Under the pieces are notes generated by a model. The model worked only from the letters and a program-made list of their open reading frames with translations, made no database searches and was not told the origin of the DNA. A stretch of DNA of 40,642 nt, from contig VHCZ01000025.1 of the NCBI GenBank assembly GCA_016871535.1, positions 1-40,642 of the forward strand, written 5' to 3'. The position numbers and the translations under genes are program-made. Shown here piece by piece: positions 3,805-29,432 of this stretch (positions are counted from its first letter, which is position 1; every line of letters begins with the position of its first letter). Source of the DNA: Verrucomicrobiota bacterium (GTDB lineage: Bacteria > Verrucomicrobiota > Verrucomicrobiia > Limisphaerales > SIBE01).

Positions 3805-5517
3805 ATGTCGGATATTTCTCCCAGCCCGCTGTTGGCGCTCATCAAGGAGCGAGGCCTCATTGACGATCTGCAATTGGAGGAAGTCTCTCAGGAACAGAGC
3901 CGCACGGGCAAGCCCATCGGCGAGATTCTGAATGCGTTTGGGATCGTGGACACCTTCACTCAACTCCAGATCACGGCCGATCATCTGGGGACGGAGGTTG
4001 TGGAGATTCGGGAACAGGATATCCCTCCGGACGTTTTGAAGGTGATCCCGGCGCCGCCCGCCCGCATGTATCAGTGTTTGCCGCTGGAGGATTTTGGCTC
4101 CAGCCTGCGCGTAGCCCTGGCCGATCCGCTGAATCCGGGAGTGATCGACGAACTCGGATTCACGATTGGACGGGAAGTTCAGGTCGTGGTTGCGGACCCG
4201 GCCCAAATCGAACGGGCCATCAATAATCTTTACCCGGAGGACACCGAAAGCGTCAGCCAGGTTCTCAAAGAATTGGGCGCGGAGCTCGAAGCGGGAAGGA
4301 AGGAAGCTGCCGTTGAAGCTCCCAAAGGTTATGACGTGGGGAATCTGGCAGACCAGGCCAACGCGACCCCGATCATCAAATTCGTCAATCTGGTCCTTTA
4401 TCAAGCAATCCAGGATCGGGCGAGCGACATTCATTTCGAGCCCTTCGAGGATGAGTTCAAGATTCGCTACCGCGTGGACGGAGCGCTTTACGAAATGTCT
4501 CCGCCGCCCAAGCACCTCGCGTTGCCGGTTACTTCGAGATTGAAGGTCATGGCGAATCTGGATATCTCCGAGCGGCGCTTGCCTCAGGACGGGCGCATCG
4601 CCATTCGCGTGGCGGGCCGCGACGTGGACCTGCGGGTTTCGACGTTGCCGACCCAATTCGGAGAGTCAGTGGTGTTGCGCGTGCTGGATCGCTCGGCAGT
4701 TCGGCTGGAGCTGGAGTCATTGGGATTTCCTCAATTCATTCTTACTTACATGAATGAGGCGATCCAGCAGCCCAACGGAATCGTCATCGTTACGGGACCG
4801 ACCGGTTGCGGCAAGACCACGACCCTTTACTCATGCATGCGGCGGGTCAATGTCATCGACTCAAAGCTCCTCACGGTCGAAGATCCGGTCGAATACGACA
4901 TCGAGGGAATCATGCAGGTCGCCGTTCATGATTCTGTCGGAATGACTTTCGGCAAGGCCATCCGCTCGTTCCTTCGACAGGATCCGGACATCATCATGGT
5001 GGGTGAGATGCGCGACCTGGAAACCGCCCAGATCGCCATTCAAGCGTCGTTGACCGGCCACCTCGTGATGACCACGCTGCACACGAACGATGCGCCTGGC
5101 GCGGTGACTCGTATGATCGACATGGGCGTGGAGCCGTTCCTGATTTCTTCGACCTTGACGGCGGTACTTGCCCAGCGGCTCGTTCGGACGATTTGCAAGA
5201 AGTGCCGGACCCCGTTTGAACCGACCGAGAACCAGTTGTCTCTGATGAACCTTTCTCCCCACGACCTGGGCGACAAGGTTTTCCATTATGGCCGCGGCTG
5301 CGCGGCGTGCAACGACACGGGCTATCGGGGACGAAAAGGCATCTTTGAGTTGCTCGTGGTGAGCGAGCCAATTCGGGCCTTGATCAACGAAAAGGCCCCG
5401 ACAGTTGTCATACGTCAAAAGGCCGTTGAATTGGGAATGGTGACGCTGCGCGAAGATGGGCTGCGGGGCATCTTCGACGGTGAAACCACGATTGAAGAAG
5501 TGTTGAAGTACACATAA
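3805..5517 (+). CDS. pilB: GspE/PilB-family assembly ATPase (second copy)
   Basis: A 570-residue paralogue of the first ATPase, with the same layout. An N-terminal MshEN-like region occupies about 1-160. Walker A is GPTGCGKTT (G331-T338), with Cys in place of the Ser of the first copy. The Asp box is LTVEDPVEY, Walker [13 protein letters not shown] and the His box [14 protein letters not shown]. Zinc cysteines are at 464/467 (CKKC) and 499/502 (CAAC). It lies between pilT and pilC, the usual place for the pilus extension ATPase, so the pilB label is an inference from context. The start ATG is five bases after the pilT stop, which suggests translational coupling. Two assembly ATPases in one operon may serve two filaments or act together. 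Confidence 0.93.
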
Positions 5518-5538
5518 TCGCTCAGAGAAAGGTTCGCT

Positions 5539-6888
5539 ATGCCGAAATTCAATTACGTCGCCATGGACTCCCGTGGCAAAGAAACCAAAGGCACTTTGGA
5601 AGTCGCGAATCAAAACGAAGCCATCGCCCGCCTCAAAGAAATGAATTACTTCCCGACGAAAGTCGTGGAGGCTGACAAGGTCAAGGAAAAGCCCGGAAAA
5701 AAAGCCGCCCCCCAGGCTGGAGCCAAGAAGAAGGGCTCCATGCAAATCAACATCAAGATCCCGGGCTTGGGCGGGAAGGTTAAGCCAAAAGTGCTCACGG
5801 CTTTCACACGCCAATTGGCGACGCTGGTGGATGCGGGTCTTCCTTTGTTGCGTGGCTTGCGGGTTTTGGAAAAACAAGAGAAGAACGCCACGCTGAGAAG
5901 GATCATTTCCGACCTCGCCGTATCGATCGAAGGCGGAAGCACGTTTTCTGAAGGTTTGGCGCAGCATCCCAAAGTTTTCAACCGCCTCTTCGTGAACATG
6001 GTGAAGGCCGGTGAACTGGGCGGCGTGTTGGAGGTGGTGTTGAACCGGCTGGCTGAATTCATGGAAAAAGCCCAGAAGATCAAAGGCAAGGTCGTCGCCG
6101 CCATGTTCTACCCGGCTGCGGTCATGTTCGTGGCAACGGTCATTCTGGCCGTCTTGATGATTGTCGTGGTGCCGAAGTTCAAGTCGATCTTTGCGGACAT
6201 GCTCGAAGGCGCCAGTCTGCCTGCGTTCACGGACACGGTTCTGGCCATCAGCGACACCATCAAGAATTATTCCATAATGGAGGTCACCTTCTTTCCTTAC
6301 TACATTCCAGGTCCGGTTGTCTGGAGTATCGTGGGTGTCTTCATCCTTTTCCGATTGTCGCTGAAAACCAAAATTGGCCGCAAAGCCTTCGATAAGTTCA
6401 AGCTCGTATTCCCGGTTCTGGGTCCCGTGGTCAGCAAAGTCGCCATCTCTCGCTTTGCCCGGACACTCGGCACCTTGATCAGCAGCGGTGTGCCGATTCT
6501 GCAGGCGCTTACCATCGTGAAAGAAACATCGGGAAACGTGATCGTTGGGAATGCCGTAGCCGCGGTTCATGAAAGCGTCAAAGAGGGCGAGACCATCACG
6601 GCGCCACTTGAGGCAGCGAATGTTTTTCCACCGATGGTCATCAGCATGGTGGACGTCGGCGAGCAAACGGGCGCCTTGCCGGAAATGTTGATAAAGATCG
6701 CCGATAACTACGACGACGAAGTGGATAATGCGGTTGCCGCGATGACCTCGCTTCTGGAACCCATTATGATCGTCTTCCTTGCGGTAGTCGTAGGAAGCAT
6801 CGTCATCGCGTTGTTCCTCCCGTTGATCACCTTGATCGACAAGCTCGGTTCTGAAGGCGCCGGAGGCCAGGGCGGCGGTGATGATTGA
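5539..6888 (+). CDS. pilC: PilC/GspF inner-membrane platform protein
   Basis: A 449-residue polytopic membrane protein that links the cytoplasmic ATPase to pilin insertion. Two T2SSF domains are visible, starting at FTRQLATLVDAGLPLLRGL and at FARTLGTLISSGVPILQAL. Hydrophobic segments lie near residues 190-215, 255-270 and 410-435. The N-terminus (FNYVAMDSRGKETKGTLE) matches the usual start of the family. A lysine/glycine-rich linker at about residues 50-75 is longer than in many homologues. The start ATG 5539 follows the ribosome-binding sequence GAGAAAGG (5525-5532). It is the last gene of the operon, ending just before a terminator. Confidence 0.95.
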   Translation: MPKFNYVAMDSRGKETKGTLEVANQNEAIARLKEMNYFPTKVVEADKVKEKPGKKAAPQAGAKKKGSMQINIKIPGLGGKVKPKVLTAFTRQLATLVDAGLPLLRGLRVLEKQEKNATLRRIISDLAVSIEGGSTFSEGLAQHPKVFNRLFVNMVKAGELGGVLEVVLNRLAEFMEKAQKIKGKVVAAMFYPAAVMFVATVILAVLMIVVVPKFKSIFADMLEGASLPAFTDTVLAISDTIKNYSIMEVTFFPYYIPGPVVWSIVGVFILFRLSLKTKIGRKAFDKFKLVFPVLGPVVSKVAISRFARTLGTLISSGVPILQALTIVKETSGNVIVGNAVAAVHESVKEGETITAPLEAANVFPPMVISMVDVGEQTGALPEMLIKIADNYDDEVDNAVAAMTSLLEPIMIVFLAVVVGSIVIALFLPLITLIDKLGSEGAGGQGGGDD

Positions 6889-6910
6889 TCACGCCAGTAC
6901 ATTTCTTTGG

Positions 6911-6942
6911 AGCCACCGGCATCACCGGTGGCTTCATTTTTC
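6911..6942 (+). terminator. Rho-independent terminator of the ATPase/pilC operon
   Basis: AGCCACCGG (6911-6919) and CCGGTGGCT (6925-6933) form a perfect 9-bp stem around the loop CATCA. A T-rich run with one C and one A (6932-6941) follows. It lies 22 bases after the pilC stop. Confidence 0.85.
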
Positions 6943-6954
6943 GAAATGTTGATA

Positions 6955-6987
6955 TTGACACATCGGACGCGCAGGTGTAAATACAAT
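6955..6987 (+). promoter_or_regulatory. Candidate promoter of the toxin-antitoxin pair
   Basis: A perfect -35 box TTGACA (6955-6960) stands between the operon terminator and the toxin gene. The -10 box is uncertain. TAAATA at 6978 has ideal 17-base spacing but a weak match. TACAAT at 6982-6987 matches five of six positions but with 21-base spacing. The second choice overlaps the inverted repeat at 6984-6999. Confidence 0.4.
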
Positions 6988-6999
6988 GTAATCACATTG
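6984..6999. promoter_or_regulatory. Candidate operator of the toxin-antitoxin pair
   Basis: CAATGT (6984-6989) and ACATTG (6994-6999) form a perfect 6-bp inverted repeat with a 4-base spacer. It overlaps the candidate -10 region and lies 31 bases before the toxin start. Ribbon-helix-helix antitoxins usually bind such short palindromes to repress their own promoter, so BrnA-type autoregulation is a reasonable inference. Confidence 0.45.
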
Positions 7000-7030
7000 A
7001 ATTGGCGTTTGATTTACAAGAAAACCCAAG

Positions 7031-7324
7031 ATGGAGTTTGATTGGAATAATCCGCCATTGGAGTGGGATGGTTCTTTGACGGCCAGAGACGTGGAAGAAT
7101 CCTTTGAGGATCCGTTCGCGGTTCGGTTGCTGCCCGATTCCTCGCGATTTGCCGCGCAAGCGCGGTATTTCAACCTCGGCAAGTCGGCGGCCGGAGTTGG
7201 GATATTCAGCGTTTACCGCACGAATGGAAAACAAATCCGCGTCGTGTGCGCCAGACCCTTTACCGCCGAAGAACAGTTTTTTTATCAGCGGAAGCTCAAC
7301 CAGAGCCTTTCGCAGCAAAGTTGA
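7031..7324 (+). CDS. BrnT-like type II toxin
   Basis: A 97-residue basic protein resembling the BrnT/RelE-fold toxins, which act as ribosome-dependent ribonucleases. The family pattern is visible: an N-terminal region opening MEFDWNNPPLEW, an acidic stretch SFEDPFAVRLLPDSSRF, a strand RYFNLGKSAAGVGIFSVY, and the hallmark end IRVVCARPFTAEEQFFYQR (the ISAR-x-AT-x-x-E-x-x-x-Y type motif). Length is typical. It precedes the antitoxin gene by 33 bases, which is the standard brnT-brnA order. The ribosome-binding site is weak. The pair is placed between the ATPase operon and the pilin genes and may have entered as a unit. Toxicity is inferred from family likeness only. Confidence 0.72.
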   Translation: MEFDWNNPPLEWDGSLTARDVEESFEDPFAVRLLPDSSRFAAQARYFNLGKSAAGVGIFSVYRTNGKQIRVVCARPFTAEEQFFYQRKLNQSLSQQS

Positions 7325-7357
7325 TCGTGGCCCTCGCGGGCAACTGAGGCGAACCGA

Positions 7358-7633
7358 ATGAACGCCGTAATGAGTTGGGAAGAAGTCCCGCTCTTCGACA
7401 GCGAAGAGGCTGAGGCCTCTTTCTGGTCGGAAAACAGTATTGACATGCGGCTCATGGAAGGCGCGGTGGCTGCAGGCACAGAAGTGTCGGAATCGATCAC
7501 CATTACGTTGCGGATGGATCCCAGGATGCTCGCGCGAATCAAACGCCTCGCTCGTTCCAGGTATCTAAACTACCAGAGCATGATCAAGCAATGGCTGAGC
7601 GAGCGCATGGAACAGGAATTGCGGGAAAGATAG
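7358..7633 (+). CDS. BrnA/CopG-type antitoxin
   Basis: A 91-residue protein of the CopG-antitoxin type that pairs with BrnT-like toxins. Residues 9-24 carry the F-x-SEEEEA-x-FW-like motif (LFDSEEAEASFW). The C-terminal half is a ribbon-helix-helix domain: SITITLRMDPRMLARIKRLA, then NYQSMIKQWLSERM. The ATG at 7358 is preceded by GAGG at 7345-7348 with workable spacing; an alternative ATG lies at 7370. It is expected to neutralise the upstream toxin and to bind the palindrome at 6984-6999. The stop at 7633 is followed at once by dyad repeats. Confidence 0.72.
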   Translation: MNAVMSWEEVPLFDSEEAEASFWSENSIDMRLMEGAVAAGTEVSESITITLRMDPRMLARIKRLARSRYLNYQSMIKQWLSERMEQELRER

Positions 7634-25497: not shown

Positions 25498-26676
25498 CGG
25501 CTCTCCTCACAGACCGCCCCGCGTTCCGCCGCGCTTTCGTCGCAGGGCGGCGTGATCGATCCGCGGGTCCGATATTCGAGCACGAACGTTTGCCTCAACT
25601 GGGATTCACAAGCGGGCCTGAAGTATCGCGTCGAAGGAGCCACTTCCGGTGTTTCCCGGGTGGTGTACGACAACACGGTTAGCAGCAGCTCCGTCCGATC
25701 GTTTTTCCCAGGCAACGGAATCGAGTTTGGAGACGACGTCACACTCGCCGGGACCGAGCGTCTTCTGACCGATTTTCGTTTCGATTATTTTCTGAGTCCG
25801 AACGCCAACGCGAACGAGAAAGCGGAATTGTTCTTCCGCTTGAATGACGGCCCGGACGACACGCCGGGAACGATGGTGTTTCGCAGCGGCGAATTCACGC
25901 TCGACACCAGCCCGAGCGGCTATGTCATCGTCGATGCAACGGAGCTGGGAGTTCCGGTGCCCAATGCGCTGACCTGGAGCCTCGTCATCACCGGGGTTGA
26001 TCCGGGAGAGGAAGCCGGCTTGCTCCTGAACGGTCCCCCCACGGCCGGCGCCAGTATCGTGAGCTTCTGGCAAAGGAGCCCCGAAGGCGTCTGGACGCGG
26101 AATCTCATTGATGAAGGCGCCGTGCAGGGGAGCTTCGCGGCCTCCGTCAAAGCTGCTCCCAATGCAGCATCGTCTTGGATCCCGTTGTCCTGGGTCACGG
26201 CCTCCAGCTCAACTTCGTCCTACTGCCTGGACTTGCCCAACCCGCATCGGCTCTTTCGAATCGTGCCGGAAGCCGGCGGTCCCGGGCCCTCTCCGGCGCC
26301 GAGGCTGCAGGTTCCGGTGATCCTGGCGGACGGCCGCGTGCAATTCAGTTGGAACGCGGAAGCGGGGAAGAAATACGAATTGCAGTGGAGTCCAAACGTC
26401 GGGGATCCGCCGCGCGTCAATTGGACAACCCTCACCAACGTGACCGCAAGCGGCGCGCTCGTAACGGTCACCGAGCCAGCCCATCCCACCAGTTCGCCGC
26501 GTTTCTACCGCCTGCGCGTTCCGGAGCCTCAACGACAGGCCTGGCGTCCAAACATGCGCGGACGACACGGGCCAGGTCCTCCAGCTTGTAAGGTTTCTGA
26601 AACTCAAGGTCGTCCGGATGCACGCGGCTTCGCCAGCTTTCCGGATCGCATCCCATTTCCTCGGCGGAGTATTTGA
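25498..26676 (+). pseudogene. Frame-shifted continuation of the giant protease (ninth repeat and C-terminal domain)
   Basis: Three bases after the protease stop, the frame one base back stays open to 26676. It begins a ninth repeat at STNVCLNWDSQAGLKYRVEG. About 180 residues of another beta-rich domain (NGIEFGDDVTLAG, DFRFDYFLSPNANANEKAEL, a choice-of-anchor-like region) are inserted, and the repeat then resumes as SWIPLSWVTASSSTSSYCLD and LPNPHRLFRI. A last domain (FSWNAEAGKKYELQWSPNVG, RFYRLRVPE) is a typical end for such proteins. The frame has no start codon with a ribosome-binding site, so it reads as the lost C-terminus of the upstream gene. Residues after about 26530 are foreign. A sequencing error could give the same picture. 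Confidence 0.7.
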
Positions 26677-26840
26677 GCAGACGCGTGAAATCGCCGTCCC
26701 AATGCCATTCGCCGGTTGAGGGGCATCCCTCGTAAACGATTTCCGCCAGAGCGCGTACCAGCGCTTCATGGCGTTGCAGAGGGGTTATCGCAGGTTCAAT
26801 TTGCTTGTCGAAGACAGAGAAAATCGGGCATGAATAACTC
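26525..26840 (-). pseudogene. Remnant of a hybrid histidine kinase: PAS piece joined to a receiver-domain tail
   Basis: On the minus strand, ALAEIVYEGCPSTGEWHWDG, then DFTRLLKYSAEEMGCDPESW and RSRVHPDDL make a PAS domain of the kind found in sensor kinases. It runs directly into FQKPYKLEDLARVVRACLDA, which looks like the last helix of a response-regulator receiver domain (KP-x-x-x-x-x-L motif). The dimerisation and ATP-binding parts expected between them are missing, so an internal deletion is likely. It overlaps the 3' end of the shifted protease frame, which suggests that a rearrangement joined the two here. No intact start is evident. Confidence 0.5.
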
Positions 26841-26890
26841 CCAATCAAGAAACCAGGAACAATCGAACCATCAAATCCCAGAATTATCCC

Positions 26891-27322
26891 ATGAGAATGT
26901 TCATTCCGATCGCCGCCGCAGCGATGCTGGCGTCTGGCCTGGCGGCGGCCGCCCAGGATGCCCAAACCAAAACCTCTCCAACGGCCGCCACAGCCGTTGA
27001 TAAGGCTTACAAAAATGTCGGTGTCGATGAATTCGAGAAACTTGCCGCGGACAAGAAGAATGTCGTGCTGGACGTGCGCACGCCGAAAGAATTCGCGGCG
27101 GGCCACATCAAAGGCGCGGTGAACATTGACTTCAATGCCCCGGACTTTGAAAAGAAAATCGCCGCGCTGGCCAAGGACAAGACGTACCTCGTTCACTGCG
27201 CCGGCGGCGTCCGCAGCAGCAAGGCTTGCGCGAAGATGGGCGATCTCAGGTTCAAGCATCTGGTCAACCTCGAGCCGGGGTTCAAGGCGTGGGAGAAGGC
27301 GGGCAAGGCGGTGGAAAAGTAA
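26891..27322 (+). CDS. Periplasmic single-domain rhodanese
   Basis: A 143-residue protein with a signal peptide (FIPIAAAAMLASGLAAAAQ) and one rhodanese domain. VVLDVRTPKEFAAGHIKGA is the CH2A-type motif, and the active-site loop is HCAGGVRSSKAC with catalytic Cys103. Rhodaneses move sulfane sulfur between small molecules or proteins; the substrate here is unknown. ATG 26891 is chosen, with a second ATG at 26897. It stands alone between the kinase remnant and the integron-like cassette, and its 3' end lies about 60 bases before the cassette core site. Confidence 0.88.
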   Translation: MRMFIPIAAAAMLASGLAAAAQDAQTKTSPTAATAVDKAYKNVGVDEFEKLAADKKNVVLDVRTPKEFAAGHIKGAVNIDFNAPDFEKKIAALAKDKTYLVHCAGGVRSSKACAKMGDLRFKHLVNLEPGFKAWEKAGKAVEK

Positions 27323-27384
27323 GACGGGATGGACTGGCTTGGGAAGACCCAGTGAGCAGCCACTGGTTTTCAGTAATCTCCACT

Positions 27385-27391
27385 GTTAGCC
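27385..27391 (+). other. Integron-type recombination core site at the start of a gene cassette
   Basis: GTTAGCC fits the GTTRRRY core except at the last R position. It lies four bases before the ATG of the VOC gene and is the exact reverse complement of GGCTAAC at 27776-27782, which overlaps that gene's stop. In a circularised cassette the two would pair as the outer arms of one attC site. Confidence 0.6.
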
Positions 27392-27394
27392 AAA

Positions 27395-27781
27395 ATGAAA
27401 AAGCGCGCGCGTCGTCAGGTGGAGTGCACGATTCCGGTTCTGCCGGTGGGCAGTCTCGCCCGAAGCATTCGCTTCTACACCGAGAAGTTGGAGTTCAAGC
27501 TCGACTGGCGCGGCGGCGCGCTTTGCTCCGTTTCGCGCGATGGAAGCTCGATCATGCTTCGTCAGAAGCACAGGCGCGATAAGTCGGCGCCGGTTTGGGT
27601 GTGGATCGGCTTGGAGAGCGACACCCTGTTCGAGAAGTTCAGGGCGCGTGGCGTCAAGGTTCTCCAAGAGCCGCGGAATTGTTCCTGGGCGTATGAGATG
27701 ATGTTCGCAGATCCCGATGGTAATGTGTTGTGGCTCGGCACGGAGTCGAAGCGAAATTTGCCGCTTGAAGAAAATGGCTAA
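27395..27781 (+). CDS. VOC/glyoxalase-bleomycin-resistance superfamily protein in an integron-like cassette
   Basis: A 128-residue single VOC-fold protein. It shows TIPVLPVGSLARSIRFYTEK, then FKLDWRGG, and the closing strand MMFADPDGNVLWLG, which is the most recognisable mark of the superfamily. Members act as lyases, dioxygenases, fosfomycin-modifying enzymes or drug-binding proteins; nothing in the sequence points to one substrate. The first metal ligand seen in many members is not obvious, so a binding role is possible. The ATG is 4 bases after a GTTAGCC core site and the TAA stop lies within the GGCTAAC arm of an attC-like dyad, the usual packing of an integron cassette. VOC proteins are common cassette cargo. 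Confidence 0.8.
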   Translation: MKKRARRQVECTIPVLPVGSLARSIRFYTEKLEFKLDWRGGALCSVSRDGSSIMLRQKHRRDKSAPVWVWIGLESDTLFEKFRARGVKVLQEPRNCSWAYEMMFADPDGNVLWLGTESKRNLPLEENG

Positions 27782-27866
27782 CGGCGGTGCACCGAAAGCG
27801 GGCGGGCGACGTCAGTCCAATTCGAGCGCGACTGGCTGCCCGCGTCGTGAGCTTGGGTCGTTGGCA
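27776..27866 (+). other. attC-like recombination site
   Basis: GGCTAAC (27776-27782) and GTTGGCA (27860-27866) bound a 91-base imperfect dyad. Pairings include GCTAACG with CGTTGGC (one G-T pair), AAGC with GCTT, GCGGGC with GCCCGC, and CAGTC with GACTG. The closing arm belongs to the next segment; the cassette's own GTTAGCC at 27385 pairs perfectly with GGCTAAC. Length and layout fit an integron attC site. No integrase gene is in the window. Confidence 0.6.
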
Positions 27867-27872
27867 GAAACT

Positions 27873-28505
27873 ATGCAAGCAACGATGACATTAAGCCGCG
27901 CAGCCCTTGCGGTTCTTAATGATCGTAACAAGATCGTGGCGCTTGCGGACGACTACTGGACTTTAATTGCTGACAGTGATGCTAAAGCGGAGCATGCCTT
28001 TGAAAATGCCTTTCGGGAGGCTCGCAGTCGCGGCCATCTGACAAAGGATCTCTTCGTTCGCGTCGCGCGGTGGAAGTCGGTTCGGAATACACGGAACTAT
28101 GAGTTGAATACTGAGACCGACATCCGCACAGCGACCGCTGCCGCCTTTCAAGCCTCCAATGATGCCGCGTCGATTAAGGCGCTGGTACAGTTACATGGAG
28201 TCGCGTTGCGCACTGCTTCCGCTATTCTCCACTGGATGCGTCCTGAGAGATTCCCCATCTTGGACTATCGAGTGGTGACTGCCCTAGGCGAAACTGCGCC
28301 GAAGTCCTATGACGACATTCGCCTTTACATCCGCATCGCTAACCGGATCAGAGGACTGGCGCTTCACCATTCGCTTGATCTTCGGACAATTGATCGAGCA
28401 CTCTGGACATGGGACAAGCGTCGCACCCTAACATTGAAACCAAAATGTCGAAAGGCTCTAGCCTTGCCAGGGCGCTGCAGCGAACCGTTGATCAGTGTGA
28501 ATTAG
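27873..28505 (+). CDS. HhH-type (DNA glycosylase-like) protein of unknown function, downstream of attC
   Basis: A 210-residue protein. The central part LVQLHGVALRTASAILHWM followed by PERFPILDYRVVTALGE resembles the helix-hairpin-helix and Pro-Ile-Leu-Asp segment of the HhH-GPD DNA repair superfamily. The rest is not recognised. I chose ATG 27873, because earlier in-frame starts would be read through the attC-like dyad; a second ATG follows at 27885. The start is 13 bases after the recombination point, as expected for a cassette gene, but no closing attC is visible after the stop, so it may be a truncated cassette. The coding sequence looks visibly less G+C-rich than its neighbours, which suggests transfer. 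Confidence 0.6.
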   Translation: MQATMTLSRAALAVLNDRNKIVALADDYWTLIADSDAKAEHAFENAFREARSRGHLTKDLFVRVARWKSVRNTRNYELNTETDIRTATAAAFQASNDAASIKALVQLHGVALRTASAILHWMRPERFPILDYRVVTALGETAPKSYDDIRLYIRIANRIRGLALHHSLDLRTIDRALWTWDKRRTLTLKPKCRKALALPGRCSEPLISVN

Positions 28506-28551
28506 TGTTGAATGGTACCAAGTACCAATTTGGTTGAACTAAATCTTGCCT

Positions 28552-29304
28552 ATGAAAACCCGAAATCTCGCAACGATCTTCTCGACCTCCGCCATCGTCT
28601 CCGCCCTTTGCGTTTGGGCACAATCGAAGGACGACGGCTTTGTCTCCATCTTCGACGGCAAGACCCTCAAAGGTTGGCACGTCAGCGCCAAGACCGGTCA
28701 CAGCCGCGTGAGCAAGAATCAATCGGGTGGCCGCTGGGTGGTGGAGAACGGCGCCATCGTCGGCAGCCAGGATATCCCCGCCAACGGCGGCATCGTGATC
28801 ACCGACGAGCCATACGGCGACTTCGAGGTCGCGCTGGAAATGAACAACGACTTCGGGCCGGACAGCGGGCTGTTCCTCCGCAGCACCGAGGACGGCAAGG
28901 CGTGGCAGGCGATGATTGACTACCACGCGAAGGGAAATGTCATGGGCATTTACGGCGAGGGCCTGGGCGGAAAACCCAGCGTGCGCAACTACAGCTTTGT
29001 GGACACGCCGGAGAAAATCGCAGCAGTCACGGATTCGCCGCTCCCTCTGGCCGTGCTGCCCGAATCATGGCCGCATTTCTGGCGTCATGGCCAGTGGAAC
29101 GAGTTGCGCGCCCGCATCGTGGGCAATCCGCCACACATTACGACCTGGATCAACGGCGTGAAAATCATGGAGTGGCAGGAGAAGGAGCTGCGCCATCCGG
29201 ACAAAGGCGGCATCGCGCTTCAGGTTCACGGCGGCGGGAATTACACGAGCCAGTTCGTGCGCTACCGGAACATCCGGGTGAAAGCGATCCCGTCCACGAA
29301 ATAG
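28552..29304 (+). CDS. Secreted DUF1080 (3-keto-disaccharide hydrolase-like) protein
   Basis: A 250-residue protein with a signal peptide (LATIFSTSAIVSALCVWAQ) and one DUF1080 concanavalin-like domain. Typical pieces are FVSIFDGKTLKGWH, GDFEVALEMNNDFGPDSGLF, WNELRARIVGNPPHITTWIN and the closing KGGIALQVHGGG followed by VRYRNIRVK. Some members of the family hydrolyse 3-keto-glycosides, and Verrucomicrobia and Planctomycetes carry many of them. ATG 28552 is preferred to an in-frame TTG six bases earlier. The upstream gap contains GGTACCAAGTACC, a small palindrome of unknown meaning. Confidence 0.88.
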   Translation: MKTRNLATIFSTSAIVSALCVWAQSKDDGFVSIFDGKTLKGWHVSAKTGHSRVSKNQSGGRWVVENGAIVGSQDIPANGGIVITDEPYGDFEVALEMNNDFGPDSGLFLRSTEDGKAWQAMIDYHAKGNVMGIYGEGLGGKPSVRNYSFVDTPEKIAAVTDSPLPLAVLPESWPHFWRHGQWNELRARIVGNPPHITTWINGVKIMEWQEKELRHPDKGGIALQVHGGGNYTSQFVRYRNIRVKAIPSTK

Positions 29305-29371
29305 GTTAGAGATGTTCTCATGGACTTTCGCTCCCTACCAACCTTGAAGATCCTTGGATTCCTTGGTTTTC

Positions 29372-29432
29372 TAACAGGAGATTACAGAGGCAACGGAGAG
29401 CTCTTCTCTGTTCCCTCCGTTTCCTCCTGTTA
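29372..29432. repeat. Dyad repeat (TAACAGGAG type) between the DUF1080 and YceI genes
   Basis: TAACAGGAG (29372-29380) and CTCCTGTTA (29424-29432) are perfect inverted ends, with AACGGAG and CTCCGTT nested inside. The 206-base gap has no other feature apart from a short spacer before the YceI gene. Confidence 0.7.

Follow-up and report, generated by a model that had tools for sequence, protein, structure and literature searches.

The locus studied here lies on the plus strand of a 40.6-kb stretch of DNA (hereafter the window, meaning the whole stretch that was analyzed), between two chromosomal genes. On the left, a rhodanese-domain gene (26891-27322; PF00581, E 1.8e-19) is followed by a segment ending in the G of a G^TT triplet (27363-27385). 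On the right, the chromosome resumes with TTGATCAGTGTGAATTAGTG (28488-28507) ahead of a DUF1080-type gene (28546-29304), which we take to belong to the 3-keto-disaccharide hydrolase-like family. The two genes adjoin each other in two genomes of the same genus (G236 and G237), where the DUF1080-type proteins are 80-88% identical to the one in the window. Between them, we observed two integron gene cassettes of 475 bp (cassette 1, 27386-27860) and 627 bp (cassette 2, 27861-28487).

The two cassettes

Cassette 1 contains a single ORF of 128 aa belonging to the VOC/glyoxalase superfamily (27395-27781; PF00903, E 2.6e-12), and core sites are found at both of its ends. The left core site, GTTAGCC (27385-27391), takes its G from the target and its TTAGCC from the first bases of the cassette. 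It is the exact reverse complement, over 7/7 positions, of GGCTAAC (27776-27782), the R'' arm of the cassette's own attC site. The stop codon of the VOC ORF (TAA, 27779-27781) is located inside this arm, so that the ORF ends within the attC. A sequence-only reading of this DNA had already proposed a VOC cassette with these boundaries, outer arms that are reverse complements, one overlapping the stop, and a core-like site behind the dyad. All of these positions held when re-checked, the last being GTTGGCA at 27860-27866. The same reading described the cassette as a lone one, which has to be revised, as cassette 2 follows it directly with a truncated attC.

Among 195 other genomes from the order, none gave an orthologue of the VOC gene, and just two matches, at 34-35% identity, were obtained. 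Relatives with 55-67% identity occur in Verrucomicrobiota, Planctomycetota and one Dechloromonas bin, and no attC was detected near them. Their distribution fits the phylum given in the sequence-only reading, from which we take the genome to be probably that of a member of Verrucomicrobiota. The gene is a sporadically distributed member of a widespread family and was probably gained here. In NCBIfam, bleomycin-binding and fosfomycin transferase models matched its protein best, with scores that fell far short of the cut-off, and therefore no resistance function is claimed.

Cassette 2 runs from the core TTGGCA to the G of the right junction. Its ORF (ORF2, 27873-28505, 210 aa as read) is DUF6308-like, with a PF19827 score just under the cut-off (27.0 bits vs 27.3), and gave no sequence match to a solved structure. 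At its end lies the 5' half of a second attC (28461-28487), reading GCCTTGC CAGGGCGCTGCAGCGAACCG and corresponding to the R''-L'' half, while the 3' half is missing. When CCAGGCGCTGCAGCGAACC was searched within 2 edits on both strands of 390 kb, it was found at three places, namely here and in two genuine attC sites. ORF2 now runs through the attC remnant into the flank, with TTG where R'' had TAA. The original stop was probably at 28464, GCC TAA C having changed to GCC TTG C. In the nearest homologue (65% identical, G237:C68), the stop codon falls within the GCCTAAC of the attC belonging to it, a full site of 46.8 bits, and GTTAGGC lies at the other end. A more distant homologue (G241:C117) is flanked by two attC sites. 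Both homologues, in two related genomes, are cassettes as well. Deletions ending in the variable structure of attC have been described in evolved plasmids (PMC10127599).

A degraded attC site in cassette 1

The attC of cassette 1 (27776-27866) consists of R'' GGCTAAC, L'' GTGCACCGA, L' TCGTGAGC and R' GTTGGCA. It was evaluated with a covariance model (R1) built from 22 integrase-linked attC sites at 8 loci of the same class, with nothing taken from this genome. The training sites came from an arm-pairing scan of contigs from the best integrase-bearing genomes; they were aligned and the classical R/L structure was assigned. The pairs of this alignment showed strong covariation: 89.6% of the cells were paired, a figure that is partly by construction since the structure guided the choice of sites, and 13 pairs had changed on both sides. 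None of 500 shuffles scored as high, and slid versions of the structure paired 23-41% of the cells.

The top R1 match in the window was 27776-27866 on the plus strand, at full length, with 19.9 bits (E 0.013), compared to 13.1 bits (E 0.44) for the second best. This score is modest and would not stand out alone across the 6.7-Mb genome, and the R1 E-values, on which the attC counts depend, are rough. Independently of the model, the DNA of the site is about 80% identical, over 79-94 bp, to attC sites at three places in related genomes (G238:C114, G237:C387 and G237:C52; E 1e-15 to 2e-11), which score 39-53 bits with R1. The attC-like dyad of the sequence-only reading and its proposed covariance-model check are borne out by a model made from the attC sites of other genomes. 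No Rfam match was obtained in the 40.6-kb window; to our knowledge Rfam holds no attC family, hence this result is uninformative.

Within the full-length R1 match, R''/R' and L''/L' are paired and L'' is asymmetric (bulged), with a weak stem. Compared to its relatives, the site has a changed L'' and lacks one base in L'. It folds at -14.3 kcal/mol (z +1.1), no better than shuffles, in contrast with five related attC sites that fold at -18.9 to -30.8 kcal/mol (z -0.9 to -3.9). The site at 27776-27866 is a real but degraded attC. The earlier suggestion that the cassette could be mobile is doubtful because of this degraded stem. The fold of the first attC is weaker than those of related sites and the second attC is truncated, so that we probably see here a remnant in decay, of limited mobility.

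The unoccupied site in a congener

We then compared positions 26500-29400 of the window with related genomes. In both same-genus genomes (G236, contig C118, and G237, contig C23), the rhodanese and DUF1080-type genes lie side by side without the insert, and the empty site contains no attI, attC or intI. The gap between the matched parts is 157 bp in G236 vs 1269 bp here. The empty site of G236 reads CACACTGATCAGTG-TTGATCAGTGTGAATTAGTGG, where the window reads CTCCACTG-(1102 bp)-TTGATCAGTGTGAATTAGTG, and G236 continues exactly at G^TTGATCAGTGTG. At the right junction, GTTGATCAGTGTGAATTAGTG in G236 is identical to 28487-28507 of the window over 21/21 bases; this base-precise placement comes from one congener, and because the second attC is incomplete, the right end lacks a full attC/target junction. 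When the two flanks are joined, they can be aligned to the G236 empty site, with divergence in the left half; for this reason the left junction is placed by the cassette core and not by base-by-base identity.

In the genome of the window, the unoccupied target would read CACTG-TTGATCAG. Its GTTGATC is one mismatch away from GTTRRRY, the core motif of integron integrases being given as GNT/GTTRRRY (PMC10127599). The 1102-bp insert thus lies between the G and the TT of GTTGATC, in the orientation that an integron integrase gives. In G236 the empty site is a palindrome, one of about 50 copies of a repeat found there, and the target is the loop of the palindrome. This REP-like palindromic repeat, ATTAGTGTnnATCAGTGTnAATTAGTGGTT (for example L119-L145), is nearly absent from the genome of the window and from G237. 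We considered it as a preferred cassette target and rejected this idea, as none of 13 other cassette loci checked was near such a repeat.

Origin of the insertion and integrons in the class

The sequence-only reading had found no integrase nearby. This stands for the window and its contig (C25), where a profile search gave no TIGR02249 match at E<=1, so that the locus has cassettes without the adjoining intI and attI of a complete integron. It does not extend to the genome, in which contig C258 encodes an integron integrase (TIGR02249, 421.9 bits vs a cut-off of 265). The enzyme measures 507 aa from the first start codon, with about 190 extra N-terminal residues, and the contig of this draft genome breaks off just upstream of its gene. 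Comparably long integrases of relatives are accompanied by attC sites on the expected side, so this type goes with arrays. N-terminally extended integrases, with about 100-190 additional residues, are frequent in this class beside attC sites (L010 190-1713, on C258, and L029, L030, L038-L042). Directly behind the full-length gene on C258, the C-terminal end of an integron integrase is present a second time in partial form (L010 1724-1858), and further along there is a tandem repeat with several copies of a unit of about 140-180 bp (L010 4960-5900). A possible second integron integrase on contig C276 was discarded: profile positions 178-236, where the integron-specific insertion lies, are left out of its matches, and it is probably an ordinary tyrosine recombinase.

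The genome-wide search proposed by the earlier reading also returned other attC sites. R1 gave 18 matches in the genome, 15 of them at E<0.01 on 8 contigs, and several lie in islands between ordinary genes. For the islands on C6 and C66, no resolvable empty site was found. On contig C213, an insertion relative to G237:C276 (L109, about 4596-7365) carries two attC sites and a gene for a 674-aa amidohydrolase; it was examined as a second clean G^TT case and rejected, as its ends are not G^TT. A further site, on contig C344 (L111 1530-1589), is a 60-bp attC like those of class 1 integron cassettes on plasmids. It follows an ORF of 201 aa, matches thousands of plasmid records at about 88% over 73 bp, and is presumably aadA-like.

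Given the two cassettes, the congener's empty site, the G^TT junctions and the integrase and many attC sites of the same genome, we consider it highly probable (roughly 87%) that an integron integrase inserted both cassettes between the rhodanese and DUF1080-type genes, using a G^TT that is not part of an integron, known as an attG or secondary site. In this process, the attC bottom strand of an excised cassette circle would have folded, been cut opposite G^TT and been joined to the chromosomal G^TT. The product would have read target-G / TTAGCC-cassette 1-attC-cassette 2-attC-G / TTGATC-target. Afterwards, the 3' half of the second attC and the stop of ORF2 would have been lost, and substitutions, along with a deletion in L', would have made the stem of the first attC weaker. 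The integrase responsible may have been of the C258 type, and the cassettes may have arrived in one step or two.

Off-target insertion is one of three proposed origins of CALINs, and the erosion of a complete integron is another recognized one (PMC8618304). The element could then be the eroded end of an integron formerly present here, its integrase gene and other cassettes having been lost or moved by rearrangement, as the degradation of both attC sites might suggest. This history is nevertheless unlikely, given that in both same-genus genomes the flanking genes adjoin each other with no integrase or cassette between them, and that the junctions fall at the G^TT of the empty site without any intI remnant. 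If a different mobile element had brought the insert in, or if a fragment bearing cassettes had recombined homologously with this region, the G^TT junctions would be a coincidence. The attC-bearing insertion on C213, whose junctions are not clean G^TT, lends some weight to such a route, but at the present locus both ends are at cassette cores, the right one at the GTT of the empty site, and the insert has no transposase or other integrase gene, which makes this route very improbable.

That the locus holds no cassette at all, and that an ordinary VOC gene is simply surrounded by an inverted repeat that arose by chance, might be argued from the 19.9 bits of the first attC, from its fold, no better than shuffles, and from VOC relatives elsewhere that lack detectable flanking attC sites. 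Against this stand the attC DNA of about 80% identity at three places in related genomes, the empty site, the half attC at the far junction and the ORF2 homologues located in cassettes. This combined evidence already refutes the chance-repeat explanation, to which we assign next to no probability.

Cassettes without an adjacent integrase are known as CALINs (PMC8618304; PMC9024848), as the sequence-only reading had stated. As in the CALINs of IntegronFinder, the attC cassettes here have no integrase beside them, and the genome has an integrase and attC sites elsewhere. In contrast, this element has one near-complete attC, which R1 found, and the 5' half of another. IntegronFinder 2 asks for two attC sites by default, so that by count the element would be a SALIN, defined as a single attC without integrase (PMC12690207). 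Insertion at attG sites in E. coli (Loot et al., 2024, via PMC12444791) and at secondary sites (Francia et al., 1993, via PMC10127599) shares with our case the use of a G^TT in the chromosome, distinct from both attI and attC, and the expected orientation. Our case differs from them as a natural, old and decayed event instead of an experiment, and in the congener its target forms the loop of a palindrome. With the integrase-linked arrays of the same class (L044, L058 and L060), the element shares its attC family in both sequence and structure; those arrays adjoin an integrase, whereas the element in the window does not.

Taken together, these results confirm the earlier observation and partly support its interpretation. 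The element can be regarded as a small CALIN-type cluster that most probably arose by off-target insertion. Its two cassettes in an ordinary stretch of chromosome clearly exemplify, in nature, a process already known, with the empty site preserved in a relative and the element now partly decayed; it is not a new kind of system. Finding a natural insertion along with its unoccupied site decides between the proposed origins of cassette clusters without integrase, for off-target insertion at this locus.

A broader possibility is that, in this bacterial family, integron integrases habitually spread cassettes over G^TT sites of the ordinary chromosome, most cassettes forming small dispersed islands and not one array. 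We regard this as rather doubtful, since the other insertion that could be resolved, on C213, is not a clean G^TT case. Integrons in Verrucomicrobiota were already known (PMC8618304; PMC9024848), and, against the earlier remark that few CALINs are known from the phylum, integrons and cassettes are not rare here. An integron integrase over the TIGR02249 cut-off was present in 63/236 sampled genomes of the class, and all 15 relatives scanned had R1 attC matches, up to 37 per genome. Overall, these results highlight a little-studied class in which integrons are abundant, with integrases in about a quarter of the sampled genomes and many dispersed attC sites.
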